Part shown: positions 6,198 to 34,352 of the stretch, piece by piece
Layout: every line of letters starts with the position of its first letter
Position numbering within the stretch: the stretch's first letter is position 1
Assembly: GCA_937861115.1 (NCBI GenBank)
Contig: CALMBD010000340.1
Span: forward strand, 1 to 34,352
From: an uncultured Bacteroidota bacterium
Lineage (GTDB): Bacteria > Bacteroidota > Bacteroidia > Chitinophagales > Saprospiraceae
DNA length: 34,352 nucleotides
Reading direction: 5' to 3'
Position numbers and translations under genes: made by a program
Notes under the pieces: model-generated
What the model was told of the DNA's origin: nothing
The model's input: the letters and a program-made list of their open reading frames with translations, nothing else
Database searches by the model: none

Positions 6198-6326
6198 CTT
6201 CGTTCCTAATCCAAAAAACCTTCCATTCAACTCAAATCATCAATCAACTTAATTTTCCTTTTTGCACCGGGACCATTGCGCCCATATCTGCCGGTTGAGC
6301 CGCAAGAGTCCCTGGTCCGTGAAAGG
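6168..6326 (-). ncRNA. Candidate small RNA (or leader) between the kinase and adhesin genes
   Basis: A promoter-like unit (boxes at 6362-6389, -7-like CACATTTG at 6332-6339) and the strong terminator at 6176-6197 would define a minus-strand transcript of about 150 nt. The stretch contains short hairpins (for example GTCC/GGAC, and ACCGG/CCGGT flanking 6267-6286). It also contains a 13-codon reading frame (6244-6285, MGAMVPVQKGKLS) that could be a tiny peptide or chance. No known RNA family was recognised. It could instead be simply the 3' untranslated tail of the two-component operon. Confidence 0.4.
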
Positions 6327-6331
6327 ACAGG

Positions 6332-6389
6332 CAAATGTGCTGTTATGACCGTTACAAGCCATTAAAGCGACATTAAAAGAAAATTAAAA
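6332..6389 (-). promoter_or_regulatory. Promoter-like unit with three 11-bp-phased TTTAAT boxes
   Basis: On the plus strand TTAAAG/TTAAAA hexamers start at 6362, 6373 and 6384, exactly 11 bp apart (on the minus strand TTTAAT-type boxes with 5-bp spacers). A degenerate fourth box, TTACAA, is at 6352. Twenty-seven bases downstream in the minus direction lies CACATTTG (6332-6339), one mismatch from the Bacteroidota -7 element TAnnTTTG. This layout matches the unit at 9708-9766. Binding by the neighbouring response regulator is inferred, not shown. Confidence 0.45.
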
Positions 6390-6412
6390 ATCGGGGAATT
6401 GCCAGAACAGGC

Positions 6413-7780
6413 TCAATGCGGAAGGCTTACCCTGAAACAGCTGCCTTTCCCCGGCTCGGACTGGAGGGTGATGTTGCCATCATGGAGTTGAATGATTCGT
6501 CGGCTAAGGGATAAACCGATGCCGTAACCCTTCACAAATGGTTGCGCATTTTGCGCGCGGTGAAACGGTATGAATATTTTTTCCTGTTCCGTTTCCGGAA
6601 TGCCGATACCGCTGTCTATGAAGGAGATATCGATACTCCGGGCGTTGGCTGAAAACCTGATGCGGACCGTGTGATCTTCCGAAAACTTGCAGGCATTATC
6701 CATGAGGTTGAGAAAGGCGGTCTTCAGCAGGTGTTCGTTGCCGGTGATAATGAGCATCGAATCGTCGTCGGGGAGCATGTCGTATTCAAACAGGAAATGG
6801 TACCCGGGCTGGGCATTTCCGAGTTCGTTCTGTGCAGCGAACAGGGTTTCGTCGATTCGAACGGGATTGAACCTGAACCGCTGCTTTTCCACGCCCGATT
6901 GCGCCAGTGTCAGCAGTCCGTTGGTTAGCTCCACCAGCGTACGGGTATCGTCGAGCAGCGATTGCATGACCCGCTGGTATTCTTCCGGTGTCCTGACTTT
7001 TCCCAGGGTGAGTTGAAGCTGACTGGTGATGGCCGCCAGCGGGTTGCGCAGTTCGTGGGATGCATTGCTGACAAACTGCTGTTGTATTTCAAAAGCGGAC
7101 TCCAGCCTTTGCAGCATGCCGTTGAAGTTCATGGCCAGTTGGGCAATTTCGTCGCGCCGGTTGCCTTCATCGATGCGGAGGCCCAGGTTGCCGGCACTGA
7201 TACTCGACACCTCGGCGTTCATCAGCGCCAGCGGACGCACCACCTGGCCGGCAAAAATGATCCCGGTAATAATGATGATCAGGATACCGATGAACAGACC
7301 TATCCACAACACATTGCGCAGGTTTTTGAGTTTGGAACGGCCATACCGGTCAAATGCCGACGAAATAACGACGTATTCCTCGTTGCCATTTTGAAAGACG
7401 ATGCCCACATTTTCCACCTCCTGCCGGGTATATTCTATCTTTTTCTTTCTCCTGATCTCGTTGATCAGCCATGTGGAATAGTTGACCGGCAGGTCGTCCA
7501 GACTGCTGTACACCAGGTTGTTCTTTTCGTCAAATACCAATACTTTTTCCTGAAAGAGCGCGTGGATGGAGTTCTGGTCGATGATGCGCAACAACTTGTT
7601 GTCTACCTCCTTCACTGTCACCAGCAGACGCGCGGTTGTGATGGCCCTGCTTTCCAGACGCGCATAAAAATCCTCTCTGCGGTAGTCTGCCGACAAAATA
7701 TACACCGCCAGCGAAAAAACGATCAGGATGGTGGCGACAATGGCCGTAAAGCGAAGGGTAAGTGTGGTACGGATGTTCAT
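6413..7780 (-). CDS. Two-component sensor histidine kinase (membrane bound)
   Basis: This is an inner-membrane sensor that autophosphorylates on His and passes phosphate to the response regulator encoded just upstream. The 455 residues show TM1 at about 8-30, a periplasmic sensor region of roughly 125 residues without a recognisable fold, TM2 at about 157-178, a HAMP domain (about 178-232), the HisKA H-box SHELRNPL with His242, the N-box with Asn362 (NLMDNACKFS), the G1 box DSGIGI at 389-394, the F-box FIPFHRA, and the G2 box GYGIGLSL at 418-425. All catalytic motifs are intact. Its ATG overlaps the regulator's stop codon by one base (TGATG), indicating translational coupling. The signal is unknown. 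The layout resembles CusS/RprX-type kinases but lacks the PAS domain usual in PhoR, so no name is assigned. Confidence 0.94.
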   Translation of the reverse strand: MNIRTTLTLRFTAIVATILIVFSLAVYILSADYRREDFYARLESRAITTARLLVTVKEVDNKLLRIIDQNSIHALFQEKVLVFDEKNNLVYSSLDDLPVNYSTWLINEIRRKKKIEYTRQEVENVGIVFQNGNEEYVVISSAFDRYGRSKLKNLRNVLWIGLFIGILIIIITGIIFAGQVVRPLALMNAEVSSISAGNLGLRIDEGNRRDEIAQLAMNFNGMLQRLESAFEIQQQFVSNASHELRNPLAAITSQLQLTLGKVRTPEEYQRVMQSLLDDTRTLVELTNGLLTLAQSGVEKQRFRFNPVRIDETLFAAQNELGNAQPGYHFLFEYDMLPDDDSMLIITGNEHLLKTAFLNLMDNACKFSEDHTVRIRFSANARSIDISFIDSGIGIPETEQEKIFIPFHRAQNAQPFVKGYGIGLSLSRRIIQLHDGNITLQSEPGKGSCFRVSLPH

Positions 7781-8481
7781 CAGCCTGCCTGGACTTTCAG
7801 GTAATAACCCATTCCCTGTTTGGTATGAATCAGTTTGGGCTCGAAATTGCGGTCTATTTTCTTGCGCAGGAAATTGATATATACCTCCACCACGTTGGTC
7901 CCGGTGTCAAAATTGACATCCCAGACGTACTCCACGATTTCATGGCGCGATGCGACCCTGCCGTTGCGGCGCACCAGGTATTCGAGCAGGGCAAACTCCC
8001 GTGCCGTAAGGGAAATGGATATGCCGTTGCGGGTGACGGTTTTGAAGCCGGTATTCAACTCGAGGTCGGCCACACGCAGCACTTCTCCGGATTCCTCATC
8101 GGCGGGTAAACCGGGGTTGCGTTTCAGCAGTATCCGCATCCGGGCCAGCAATTCCCGGAAATCAAACGGCTTGACAATGTAGTCGTCGGCGCCCGCGTCG
8201 AACCCGGTGAGTTTTTGCTCTACGCTACCCAGCGCGGTTACGAGGATAATGGGAATTTGCGGCTGTGCCGTCCGGATAGCCTTGCACACGTCGTACCCGC
8301 TGATAAACGGCAGGTTCAGATCGAGCAGCACCATGTCATACCTGGTACTCTGTGCCAAATGCCGGCCGACCGCACCGTCGGGAGCCAGTTCGACGGCAAA
8401 GTCGTTTTCCTCCAGCCACTTTTTCACAGAGGCGGCTACTTTGGGTTCGTCTTCGATGAGCAGCACGCTGGTTTTGTTCAT
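7780..8481 (-). CDS. OmpR-family response regulator
   Basis: This is a DNA-binding response regulator of about 233 residues. The receiver domain (residues 1-120) has the acidic pair Glu10/Asp11, phospho-acceptor Asp54 (LLDLNLP), Thr82 and Lys104 (VKPFDFRELLAR). The C-terminal winged helix (about 130-230) has the recognition region VVEVYINFLRKKID and the wing tail of the OmpR/PhoB family. The ATG at 8481 (MNKTSVLL) is chosen; an ATG at 8493 is possible. A TTG at 8514 is unlikely because a perfect -7 element at 8522-8529 places the transcript start at about 8516. It forms an operon with the kinase that follows. Candidate targets are the nearby 11-bp-phased TTTAAT repeats, an inference from family behaviour. 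Confidence 0.93.
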   Translation of the reverse strand: MNKTSVLLIEDEPKVAASVKKWLEENDFAVELAPDGAVGRHLAQSTRYDMVLLDLNLPFISGYDVCKAIRTAQPQIPIILVTALGSVEQKLTGFDAGADDYIVKPFDFRELLARMRILLKRNPGLPADEESGEVLRVADLELNTGFKTVTRNGISISLTAREFALLEYLVRRNGRVASRHEIVEYVWDVNFDTGTNVVEVYINFLRKKIDRNFEPKLIHTKQGMGYYLKVQAG

Positions 8482-29891: not shown

Positions 29892-30830
29892 CTATTTACC
29901 CGTTTTTCGGTCAATCGGCACCCGCCTGATACTTTTATCCCGAACCTTGTCGGCCGGCAGGTGGGCGAGTATTTCGCTTTTCAGGGCCTCTACCAGCCGC
30001 TGTTTCACCAGGTACCGGTGCGTGACGAGACTCACCTCGCGCACCGGCTCGGGGGCAACGAAGCGTTTTACCTTTTTCAACTGCGATGCGGTGAGGTAGC
30101 CCGTTGCCAGTTCGGGCAGGATAGTGATGCCGTTTTGGGCGTCGGCCAACTGCTTGAGCGTTTCGAGGCTGCCGGCCTCGTATTCGACAGTGCGGTGGCG
30201 TTGTTGTCGCAATTCGCAGATGTTCATGATTTGCGAGCGGAAACAATGCCCTTCTTCCAGCAACCACAGTCGGTTGAGGTCGATATCTTCCGGAAGCAGG
30301 TATTCCTTGTGGTAATCCTGACCGGAATACACCACAAATGCTTCGTAGAACAGCGGATCTTCCCGGAGTGTGGCGTCGTTCAGGGGGGTCACGAGTATCG
30401 CCGCGTCCAAAAGTCCCTTGTGCATATCTTCGATCAAAACCGAAGTGGTGCGTTCACTGATCCGGAGCCTTATCTCGGGGTAGTTTTCCATAAAAGACTG
30501 GAGGAACAAGGGAAGTAAATAGGGCGAAAGGGTTGGTATAATGCCGATCCGCAGGTCGCCCTTGAGGCTCGATTCCTGTTCCAGTCCGATTTCCTTGAAG
30601 CGTTCTGCTTCCCTCAGGATTGCCCGGGCCTGGGCAATGAGCGCGACGCCAGCAAGTGTAGGCACAACAGGCTGGCGGCTCCGGTCAAATATCTTTACGC
30701 CGACCTCTTCCTCCAGTTTGCCGATCATCATGCTGAGGGTTGGCTGGGTGACAAAACACTGCTCCGCCGCCTTGGCAAAGTGCCGGTGCGCGTCGAGGGC
30801 AACGATGTATTCCAGTTGTTGCAGGTTCAT
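29892..30830 (-). CDS. oxyR: LysR-type peroxide sensor OxyR
   Basis: The product is 312 residues: an N-terminal winged helix-turn-helix (about 1-60, AAEQCFVTQPTLSMMIGKLE) and a LysR substrate-binding domain with the redox pair Cys196 and Cys205 in GHCFRSQIMNIC. The nine-residue spacing equals that of Cys199 and Cys208 in E. coli OxyR, which form a disulfide under peroxide and switch the protein to activate antioxidant genes. Conserved LLEEGHC supports OxyR over other LysR proteins. The regulator is divergent from a strong promoter/terminator unit of unknown product (30877-31057), a classic arrangement for a regulator and its target. No catalase or alkyl hydroperoxide reductase gene is adjacent. 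Confidence 0.9.
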   Translation of the reverse strand: MNLQQLEYIVALDAHRHFAKAAEQCFVTQPTLSMMIGKLEEEVGVKIFDRSRQPVVPTLAGVALIAQARAILREAERFKEIGLEQESSLKGDLRIGIIPTLSPYLLPLFLQSFMENYPEIRLRISERTTSVLIEDMHKGLLDAAILVTPLNDATLREDPLFYEAFVVYSGQDYHKEYLLPEDIDLNRLWLLEEGHCFRSQIMNICELRQQRHRTVEYEAGSLETLKQLADAQNGITILPELATGYLTASQLKKVKRFVAPEPVREVSLVTHRYLVKQRLVEALKSEILAHLPADKVRDKSIRRVPIDRKTGK

Positions 30831-30834
30831 GGCG

Positions 30835-30866
30835 CAAATATATAGACAGTTTTTATGTCAACATAG
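30835..30866 (-). promoter_or_regulatory. oxyR promoter -7 and partial OxyR-like operator
   Basis: On the minus strand TATATTTG (30835-30842) is a perfect -7 element lying only 4 bp before the oxyR ATG, so the mRNA may be nearly leaderless. Overlapping it, ATAG tetramers start at 30842 and 30863 (21 bp apart), with TTAT at 30853-30856; this partly fits the enterobacterial OxyR pattern of ATAG/CTAT elements, with other positions not matching. The Bacteroidota OxyR motif may differ. Autoregulation is suggested but not shown. Confidence 0.3.
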
Positions 30867-30876
30867 AAAATATCAG

Positions 30877-30908
30877 TTTGATTTATTGAACGGGCGCGAT
30901 TATCTTTG
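30877..30908 (+). promoter_or_regulatory. Promoter: TTTG-N20-TATCTTTG
   Basis: A -33 element TTTG (30877-30880) is followed after exactly 20 bp by TATCTTTG (30901-30908), a perfect -7 element. This is the best promoter match I saw in the window. The start is predicted at about 30915. The divergent oxyR ATG is 46 bp upstream of the -33 element. Confidence 0.7.
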
Positions 30909-30914
30909 ACAAAT

Positions 30915-31057
30915 ATTTGCTGTTCGCATTACCTGAACCCAGTTCATAATACGGTCGGTACAGGAGCATTTTTCTCCCCCACCCGATCGTTTTCCATATA
31001 TCTGTCAACAATTGGTCCTGCCGGTTCCTTGTCAAAAAGGAGCCGGCTTTTTGTTTT
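30915..31057 (+). ncRNA. Candidate small RNA divergent from oxyR
   Basis: Between the strong promoter and the strong terminator lies about 140 bp with no substantial reading frame. Several pairings are visible: GTTC/GAAC near the 5' end; CGGTCGG with CCGATCG (one G-U) enclosing an inner GGAG/CTCC; and CCAGTT with AATTGG, which would make a rod with an internal bubble. No known RNA family was recognised. It could be a peroxide-responsive regulator placed like OxyS of enterobacteria, a 6S-like RNA because of the rod shape, or a leader/attenuator of the gene starting at 31138. Distinguishing these needs expression and covariation data. Confidence 0.6.
31020..31057 (+). terminator. Strong intrinsic terminator of the candidate small RNA
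   Basis: An 11-bp stem, GCCGGTTCCTT (31020-31030) with AAGGAGCCGGC (31037-31047), one G-U pair and a 6-nt loop, is followed by TTTTTGTTTT. It stands 80 bp before the next gene's ATG, so it ends the upstream transcript rather than that gene. Confidence 0.88.
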
Positions 31058-31137
31058 GCGGGAATCGCCCGGGAAAATTCAAAGCAGAAAAACCGGAGTT
31101 TCCATTACTTTCAGCCGTCGATAAATGTACTTCGGAC

Positions 31138-31905
31138 ATGAACGAACCCGCATTCCGCCAACACCTGCCCTCTGGCGTCTCCTTCGAGATGGTCTGTGTG
31201 GAAGGTGGTTTGTTCATGATGGGTGAAACGAGCGAAGATGCATACGCCTGGGAAAGGCCGCAGCATCCGGTTCAACTCACTACTTTTCATATCGGCCGGT
31301 ATCCCGTCACCCAGGCACTCTGGAAGACCGTCATCGGTCAGCACGACAATCCCTCGGAATTTCCCGGCGACCAGCGACCGGTTGAAAATGTGTCATGGGA
31401 AGATATTACCAGACACTTTTTGCCCGAACTCAACCGCCTGACGGCTCCCTCCCGACCCGAAAACACGATATACCGGCTGCCTACAGAGGCGGAATGGGAA
31501 TATGCAGCCCGGGGCGGCAAGGCAGATGACGCCCGGATGTTCGCCGGCAGTGAAACCCTCGACCCGGTGGGCTGGTATGAAGCAAACAGCAACGGAGAAA
31601 CCAAAACCGTAGGCCTGAAAGCGCCCAACACATTGGGGCTATACGACCTGAGCGGCAACATCTACGAACGCTGTCAGGATTGCTTCGACGAGTCGTACTA
31701 TCAAACCTGTCTGGAGGAAGGGGTTGTCGTCGATCCCGGCGGACCCGATCATTTTATCAAATATGCGCTCCGTGCCGCGCGTGGCGGCAGTTTTTACCAG
31801 GACGACCGGCGTTGCCGGGTCAGGTACCGCGGCAGCGCGCCCAACCGGCCGCTGACGGGCTTTGGGTTTCGCCTGGTGTTGGGAATCTTGCCCCGGCTGT
31901 CGTAG
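31138..31905 (+). CDS. SUMF1/formylglycine-generating-enzyme-like domain protein
   Basis: The product is 255 residues from ATG 31138; an extended frame from a TTG at 31012 begins upstream of the terminator hairpin and is not believed. The SUMF1-type fold is shown by VEGGLFMMGE, PVTQALW, RPVENVSWED, YRLPTEAEWEYAARGG, GLYDLSGNIYERCQD, and the C-terminal RAARGGSFYQDD..CRVRYRG and GFGFRLV. Members oxidise a cysteine to formylglycine in sulfatases or act in other oxidations, and many have unknown substrates. No signal peptide is seen, and no sulfatase gene is adjacent. The two cysteines used by copper-type enzymes could not be confirmed here, so catalytic activity is uncertain. Confidence 0.85.
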   Translation: MNEPAFRQHLPSGVSFEMVCVEGGLFMMGETSEDAYAWERPQHPVQLTTFHIGRYPVTQALWKTVIGQHDNPSEFPGDQRPVENVSWEDITRHFLPELNRLTAPSRPENTIYRLPTEAEWEYAARGGKADDARMFAGSETLDPVGWYEANSNGETKTVGLKAPNTLGLYDLSGNIYERCQDCFDESYYQTCLEEGVVVDPGGPDHFIKYALRAARGGSFYQDDRRCRVRYRGSAPNRPLTGFGFRLVLGILPRLS

Positions 31906-33626: not shown

Positions 33627-34352
33627 TTACCTTACAATGACCAGTTTCTGAAAGTAACTCCTGGAGTCCTTTTCAATTCTCAGGTAATACAGGCCGTCAT
33701 TGAACTCCTGCAGATCCAGTTTTGAATTTTGCTGTGCAATGGCAAGCGTCTTTACGAGTTTGCCGCTTGCATCGAACATGGACAGGTTAACCGGGTCGTT
33801 TGAAAACGCTGAAAATGCTATCGTACAAAAATCCGCAGCCGGGTTCGGGAAAATATGAATACCCCCCTCAGACGCTTCCAGATTTTTAACATCCACCAGG
33901 CCGCCGAATTTAATATCATCCCAGTAATAGGTCTTTTCGCCCGCCATGGCCCCCGTGGTGCCGAAGTTGAAGAAGATGGATACTTTGTTATAAGTGTTCG
34001 CCACGTTGATGGCGGCCGTGCCCGGGGCCTGGTTGCTGAAGTTGAACTCCAGGGTTTCCCAGGCGCCTGCCATCGTGGTGTTCGCTTCTGTTTCCACGCT
34101 GATGGTGGGGTTGGAAGCGTCCTCCACTTTCAGGCGAATAGGTGTATTGGCATCGGGCGACCATACCCGAACGGTCATCCTGGTGTTGGCTACGGTGAAC
34201 GGTATCGGGTTGGCCAGGCCGCTGCCGCCATTGGTCGTACCGGCCCAAAGTTCTGCCCCGCCCGTTTTGATGACCTTGCCAACAAGGTTGTTCGGGTCGG
34301 TGGGGTCCTCGACGATGGAGGAAACATTACCGCCGAAGTCAACGAGATCGTA
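33627..34352 (-). CDS. C-terminal part of a T9SS-exported protein with a beta-sandwich module; 5' end beyond window
   Basis: The frame is open to the right edge, giving 241 residues of the C terminus; an internal ATG at 34178 is not the start. The first part (FGGNVSSIVEDPT, then NPIPFTVANTRMTVRVWSPD, then TYYWDDIKFGG) is a jelly-roll, carbohydrate-binding-like module such as those attached to secreted glycoside hydrolases of Bacteroidota. The final 80 residues (IHIFPNPAADFCTIAF to ...FQKLVIVR) are a type A T9SS sorting domain. The catalytic part is outside the window, so the activity is unknown. Confidence 0.82.
   Translation of the reverse strand, partial: YDLVDFGGNVSSIVEDPTDPNNLVGKVIKTGGAELWAGTTNGGSGLANPIPFTVANTRMTVRVWSPDANTPIRLKVEDASNPTISVETEANTTMAGAWETLEFNFSNQAPGTAAINVANTYNKVSIFFNFGTTGAMAGEKTYYWDDIKFGGLVDVKNLEASEGGIHIFPNPAADFCTIAFSAFSNDPVNLSMFDASGKLVKTLAIAQQNSKLDLQEFNDGLYYLRIEKDSRSYFQKLVIVR

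Follow-up and report, generated by a model that had tools for sequence, protein, structure and literature searches.

A putative OxyR-controlled small RNA gene divergent from oxyR in an uncultured Saprospiraceae bacterium

Our analysis of a 34,352-nucleotide stretch of DNA from an uncultured member of the Saprospiraceae (hereafter the window) suggests that the interval divergent from its oxyR gene encodes a peroxide-induced, trans-acting small RNA, which would work in the manner of OxyS, relatedness to OxyS not being implied. We hold this reading at a little better than even confidence. The operator, the promoter, the terminator and the absence of an open reading frame (ORF) are supported by the sequence and by comparison with relatives. 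We infer that an RNA would be produced, and by analogy that this RNA would base pair in trans with mRNAs during the peroxide response.

Results

OxyR and its operator

The oxyR gene of the window lies on the minus strand (29892..30830) and encodes a LysR-type peroxide sensor of 312 aa with the Pfam domains LysR_substrate and HTH_1. Its redox cysteines, C196 and C205, fall within the segment EGHCFRSQIMNIC, and their spacing is that of the C199/C208 pair given in PMC2225504. The best PDB matches of the protein were OxyR structures. By these features, the gene encodes a genuine OxyR in which the two redox cysteines are present.

A 45 bp operator model placed an OxyR operator of the form ATAG-N7-TTAT-N6-ATAG...ATCAGTTTGATTTAT at 30842..30886, with a score of 48.8 bits. 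The seed of this model was a consensus drafted after the upstream regions, the window included, had been viewed; it was then refined on peroxide loci alone (51 loci, 50 of which gave sites), with the window excluded. The opposite-strand reading of 30842-30886 scored 13.7 bits, the best window site clear of the operator scored -5.8 bits, and the best site in 20 Markov windows, searched on one strand, scored -1.3 bits. With up to 3 mismatches to the operator core allowed, the genome yielded one perfect match and one other site, which had 3 mismatches. The form of the operator agrees with the OxyR repeats of E. coli, which are written ATAG-n7-CTAT in PMC5002191. Since the operator overlaps the -33 box of the divergent promoter, the predicted control of this promoter by peroxide is well supported.

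On the minus strand, four bases separate the likely -7 box of oxyR itself (TATATTTG, 30835-30842) from the ATG, and transcription of oxyR may therefore start at this ATG or close to it. The operator begins at the -7 box and extends over the DNA upstream. The genome's own katG, apart from this oxyR, is located on contig C345 of G000 (6249-8120; L033, L038), starts about 100 bases from a contig end, and has a weaker OxyR-like site of 26.4 bits.

Promoter, interval and terminator

The initial annotation had described a promoter, an interval of about 140 nt and a terminator facing away from oxyR, and our check of the sequence found all three in place. The promoter consists of a -33 element, TTTG (30877..30880, plus strand), and a -7 element, TATCTTTG (30901..30908, plus strand), with N20 between the TTTG and the box. 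This arrangement, TTTG-N20-TATCTTTG, fits the housekeeping promoter of Bacteroidota. PMC7366714 gives the Bacteroides promoter consensus as TTTG near -33 and TAnnTTTG at -7, and reports the -33 motif as not found in Flavobacterium johnsoniae. In PMC9723704, the -7 box is placed at -12 to -5 relative to the start, and from this position of the box the start of transcription in the window is predicted at about 30913. The strict promoter pattern matched once in the window, against a mean of 0.27 in 100 first-order Markov windows. The pattern alone is weak evidence, and it is its adjacency to the operator that convinces.

The predicted small RNA (30913..31057, plus strand) takes its bounds from the promoter and the terminator, is about 140 nt long and contains no ATG. 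It is closed by a one-way intrinsic terminator (31020..31057, plus strand), which has an 11-bp hairpin stem at 31020-31047 followed by a U-rich tail, TTTTTGTTTT, to 31057. Over 2.5 kb we counted 6 terminator-like sites, of which this hairpin has the most pairs; the number of sites itself is unremarkable because shuffles give a mean of 2.8 (sd 2.0). The T-run lies only on the side facing away from oxyR and the 5' side has no A-run, so the hairpin should terminate only transcripts leaving oxyR.

The neighbouring gene past the terminator (31138..31905, plus strand) encodes a protein of 255 aa with an FGE-sulfatase (SUMF1-like) domain (Pfam PF03781). Its family is large: counting the protein itself, the genome has 11 matches to it at E 1e-20 or better. 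Farther along, the minus strand of 33627-34352 encodes the C-terminal part of a protein with a sorting-domain-like ending, which resembles a type IX secretion cargo.

Survey of oxyR upstream regions in relatives

OxyR matches of any strength were found in 42 of 60 genomes and on one further contig, in 25 of 42 genomes of the genus, and in 226 of 396 genomes of the order. The survey uses only the matches listed, among which 137 upstream regions, the window included, were usable; L036 was left out as it runs off its contig. The start codon was unmatched for L025, L072, L073, L082 and L083. For L084-L143 the sequence examined spanned about 720-760 bases, and for some other loci it was shorter; genes lying farther away would be missed. 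Regions were classed by seven reference proteins taken from the surveyed loci, which fall in the expected Pfam families, and the class "none" stands for no match to these seven. We presume that the peroxidase-family references are KatG and that the ferritin-like reference is Dps.

Among the matches listed, a divergent peroxide gene was present in 51 of the 137 regions (KatG 38, catalase 10 and Dps 3), MsrB was present in 1, and 85 had no reference protein. An operator of at least 20 bits was found in 87 of these 137 regions among the matches listed, 50 with and 37 without a peroxide gene. Of the relatives whose upstream region is readable, the closest (G061, OxyR 76% identical) has catalase at the promoter, and four more relatives (OxyR 65-68% identical) have KatG there. 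The operator and promoter of the window are of the type that drives katG, catalase or dps in relatives, and in the window lineage a catalase-type switch appears to have been put to a non-coding output.

At L029, where an excellent operator scored 50.6 bits, the segment about 93-195 bases upstream of oxyR may encode, divergently, a membrane-like peptide of about 33 residues, as judged by eye.

The same layout at other loci

A one-way terminator past the promoter and before any 25-aa ORF, together with a -7 box matching at least 5/6, was found in the window and at L007, L008, L010 and L073. The loci L007, L008 and L010 come from G001, G018 and G027, respectively, which are of the same genus as the window. 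Their operators scored 37-51 bits, their -7 boxes matched 6/6, they have no 25-aa ORF, and their one-way terminators have energies of -18.7 to -25.7 kcal/mol. L073, from the same family, has an operator of 31.4 bits and a -7 box of 5/6, and its layout looks similar.

By our rule, 13 loci were flagged with a one-way terminator among the 37 operator loci without a peroxide gene. The candidates L021, L022, L029, L046, L084 and L143 were doubtful, with a hairpin in a likely gene, a weak hairpin or a poor -7 box. L055 and L090 were ambiguous because their A-run-led stems could terminate both ways. Hairpins with a 5' A-run (L046, L048, L054, L056, L084, L085, L103, L114 and L130) were set aside as evidence of divergent transcription, since such hairpins can act for the gene on the opposite side. 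Under the same rule, a one-way terminator ahead of the peroxide gene was found at 0 of 51 loci among the matches listed; this control is a lenient one, because the median distance of 147 bases from oxyR to the peroxide gene leaves little room for a terminator. The pre-gene hairpins of L035, L017 and L077 were set aside by the rule, for promoter overlap or as two-way.

In a tree of 57 OxyR proteins, L007, L008 and L010 form one group, and the window is placed among catalase/KatG loci. These four loci need two state changes on the tree, so a single origin is not required. Two gains would fit the OxyR tree, and one gain followed by later losses is also possible.

Other structures were seen near oxyR in this survey. 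L084 and L085, each from a different genome of the order, have in common a non-coding 3' segment that is conserved and a hairpin, both at the OxyR promoter, about 70-200 bases upstream of oxyR; the hairpin bears a 5' A-run and may act in either direction. About 74-160 bases upstream at L010 there is a long imperfect palindrome (body z -5.11). Judged by eye, it is similar to sequence close to oxyR in L019, and it is perhaps a dispersed repeat.

Conservation of the predicted RNAs

Between L007 and L008, the operator and the promoter are nearly identical and the middle hairpin differs. An identical run of 59 bases takes in the terminator hairpin and the 31 bases that precede the terminator; DNA identity is 73% for the neighbouring gene and 83% for oxyR. 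In the predicted folds of both, a lower stem closes the middle (CTCTGAAC with GTTCGGAG; TCTGGAC with GTCCGGA). One A-U pair of this stem is replaced by G-C with the pairing kept, which is a reading of two predicted folds and not a statistical result. In the same two folds, the two strands of the upper stem both differ, and this stem is formed anew. The L007 and L008 bodies were not significantly more stable than shuffles (z -1.25 and -1.75, respectively). The pair shows RNA-like conservation, and it is the sole evidence of selection for such RNAs.

A blastn search with the window RNA in 60 genomes gave 1 match, which was its own genome, and no homologue in the 59 relatives. Five further genomes of the same genus contained no homologue of the RNA either, the only match below E 0.001 being the operator in G061. 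When the RNA body was compared with those of other loci, the shuffles that scored as high numbered, out of 300, 131 for L007, 78 for L008, 70 for L084, 60 for L073, 276 for L055 and 32 for L010; the similarity to the RNAs of L007 and L008 was not significant. Against the catalase leader of L035, 12 of 300 shuffles scored as high, which we treated as marginal. The L007 RNA, searched against 398 genomes of the family, gave 12 matches at E 0.01: its own locus and, for the rest, short stretches. None of the matches was in G018, the genome of the near twin L008, which is probably outside the 398-genome sample. The interpretation put forward in the initial annotation is partly supported: the operator model and what relatives have at such promoters speak for the link to OxyR and for the reading as a small RNA.

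Fold and Rfam searches

The fold of the whole window RNA had a z of -3.47, with 2 of 200 shuffles as low. The RNA body without the terminator showed no significant structure (z -1.48, a value reached by 19 of 300 shuffles), so the value for the whole RNA probably comes largely from the terminator. The whole window had no match to 4227 Rfam families at the gathering threshold, and 30830-31200 had none at E up to 5.

Discussion

Proposed mechanism

We propose that peroxide would lead to the oxidation of OxyR, whose 45-bp operator at 30842-30886 overlaps the -33 box of the RNA and reaches the likely oxyR promoter. Oxidised OxyR would activate the divergent promoter, and transcription would begin near 30913 and end at the terminator, at 31047-31057, yielding a non-coding RNA of about 140 nt. 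By analogy with OxyS, this RNA would pair in trans with mRNAs. In pairing predictions, the three available leaders (katG, oxyR and the next gene) came out at the level of shuffles (z -0.25 to 0.06), and as this is no better than chance, we propose no target.

Alternative explanations

The interval may be what remains of an orphaned promoter, from which catalase or katG was lost or moved and whose leftover transcript, a functionless RNA, is capped by the terminator; the OxyR operator would then be retained because it also regulates oxyR. The presence of katG elsewhere in the window genome, the catalase or KatG that relatives hold at the same position, and an RNA body that is neither conserved nor unusually structured are all consistent with this. 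Moreover, 24 of the 37 operator loci (at least 20 bits, no peroxide gene), among the matches listed, were unflagged for a one-way terminator, which means that it is common for an orphan operator to lack an evident small RNA. However, a relic would tend to lose its -33 and -7 boxes, and both are intact here; the 3' part and the terminator of L007 and L008 are kept more strictly than the surrounding genes; and a separate OxyR lineage shares the layout. We regard a functionless leftover as the main rival of the small RNA, less likely than it and at well below even confidence. Much less probable, in our judgement, is that the interval is the leader of the FGE-sulfatase gene at 31138, an attenuator with conditional read-through of the terminator, as the initial annotation had also allowed. 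This gene lies 80 bp past the terminator on the strand of the RNA, and its reading frame continues upstream without a stop, across the terminator, as far as a TTG at 31012. Yet its closest relatives (in G061, G034, G063 and G031) are on contigs other than the oxyR contig, and other genes occur past the terminator in relatives of the layout: the next gene points the opposite way at L007 and L008, and at L010 the next long ORF is MsrB, about 280 bases past the terminator. The general folds computed here showed no anti-terminator. The attenuator thus found little support, and the FGE-sulfatase gene is probably outside the system.

Another suggestion of the initial annotation was a 6S-like RNA, which would bind RNA polymerase. 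The pairings on which it was based do exist, and the rod that they form, at -40.3 kcal/mol, is only 0.7 kcal/mol above the minimum of -41.0 kcal/mol. A 6S RNA has a long closing stem with a central bubble, but the closing helix, even when enforced, is merely 6 bp here and has a lopsided internal loop. The Rfam searches, even at E up to 5, gave zero matches, and a strong OxyR operator is unexpected for a housekeeping RNA. In its favour, the two Rfam models found no other 6S gene in the genome; for Bacteroidota both are weak negatives, as the 6S-Flavo model gave hits in 0 of 14 control genomes and the 6S model in 6 of 14, and none of the matches listed for the latter was from Bacteroidota. Overall, a 6S-like RNA is not supported, and we consider it very improbable. 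A short peptide gene we regard as next to negligible: TTG starts are possible, but only one is located well before the terminator, at 30917, and it gives 10 residues. There is no ATG and no GTG in 30914-31057. Likewise, L007 has no ATG from promoter to terminator, and L008 has one, with a short frame only.

Origin and significance

For the small RNA that we favour, we tentatively suggest a wider history, in which the OxyR-controlled, oxyR-divergent promoter of Bacteroidota, which often serves katG, catalase or dps, repeatedly became a small-RNA gene and OxyS-like RNAs arose independently more than once; we hold this at well below even confidence. The cases would be the window, the lineage of L007, L008 and L010, and possibly L073 as a third, L055 and L090 being less clear. 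If this is true, an unrelated RNA at the same place, under the same regulator and in another phylum would make a convergent regulatory circuit. The route suggested is the taking over of a catalase promoter that adjoins its regulator, and the Bacteroidota would gain a peroxide-response RNA for study.

Comparison with known systems

Among the open-access papers listed, none presented an OxyR-linked small RNA of Bacteroidota, which is a weak negative given that subscription papers are mostly outside this set. The word OxyR does not occur in the main texts of PMC9723704 and PMC7366714 or in PMC10994844, and for Bacteroides thetaiotaomicron PMC10994844 reports peroxide exposure without significant expression change. 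Rfp of Flavobacterium psychrophilum and the small RNAs of B. thetaiotaomicron are likewise short, non-coding and from Bacteroidota, with TAnnTTTG promoters (PMC9723704 and PMC7366714). With 6S RNA and 6S-Flavo, the window RNA shares a broadly similar length and a near-isoenergetic rod; unlike them, it has no model match, a short closing helix and an OxyR operator.

OxyS is the textbook stress-induced small RNA; it pairs in trans with target mRNAs, aided by Hfq, and has an Rfam model. In E. coli, oxidised OxyR activates oxyS (PMC5002191). Unlike OxyS, the window RNA matches no Rfam model and has a Bacteroidota -33/-7 promoter, of a type that relatives use for catalase-type genes. Like E. coli OxyS, the predicted RNA of the window would be transcribed away from oxyR, and an OxyR operator lies in between.
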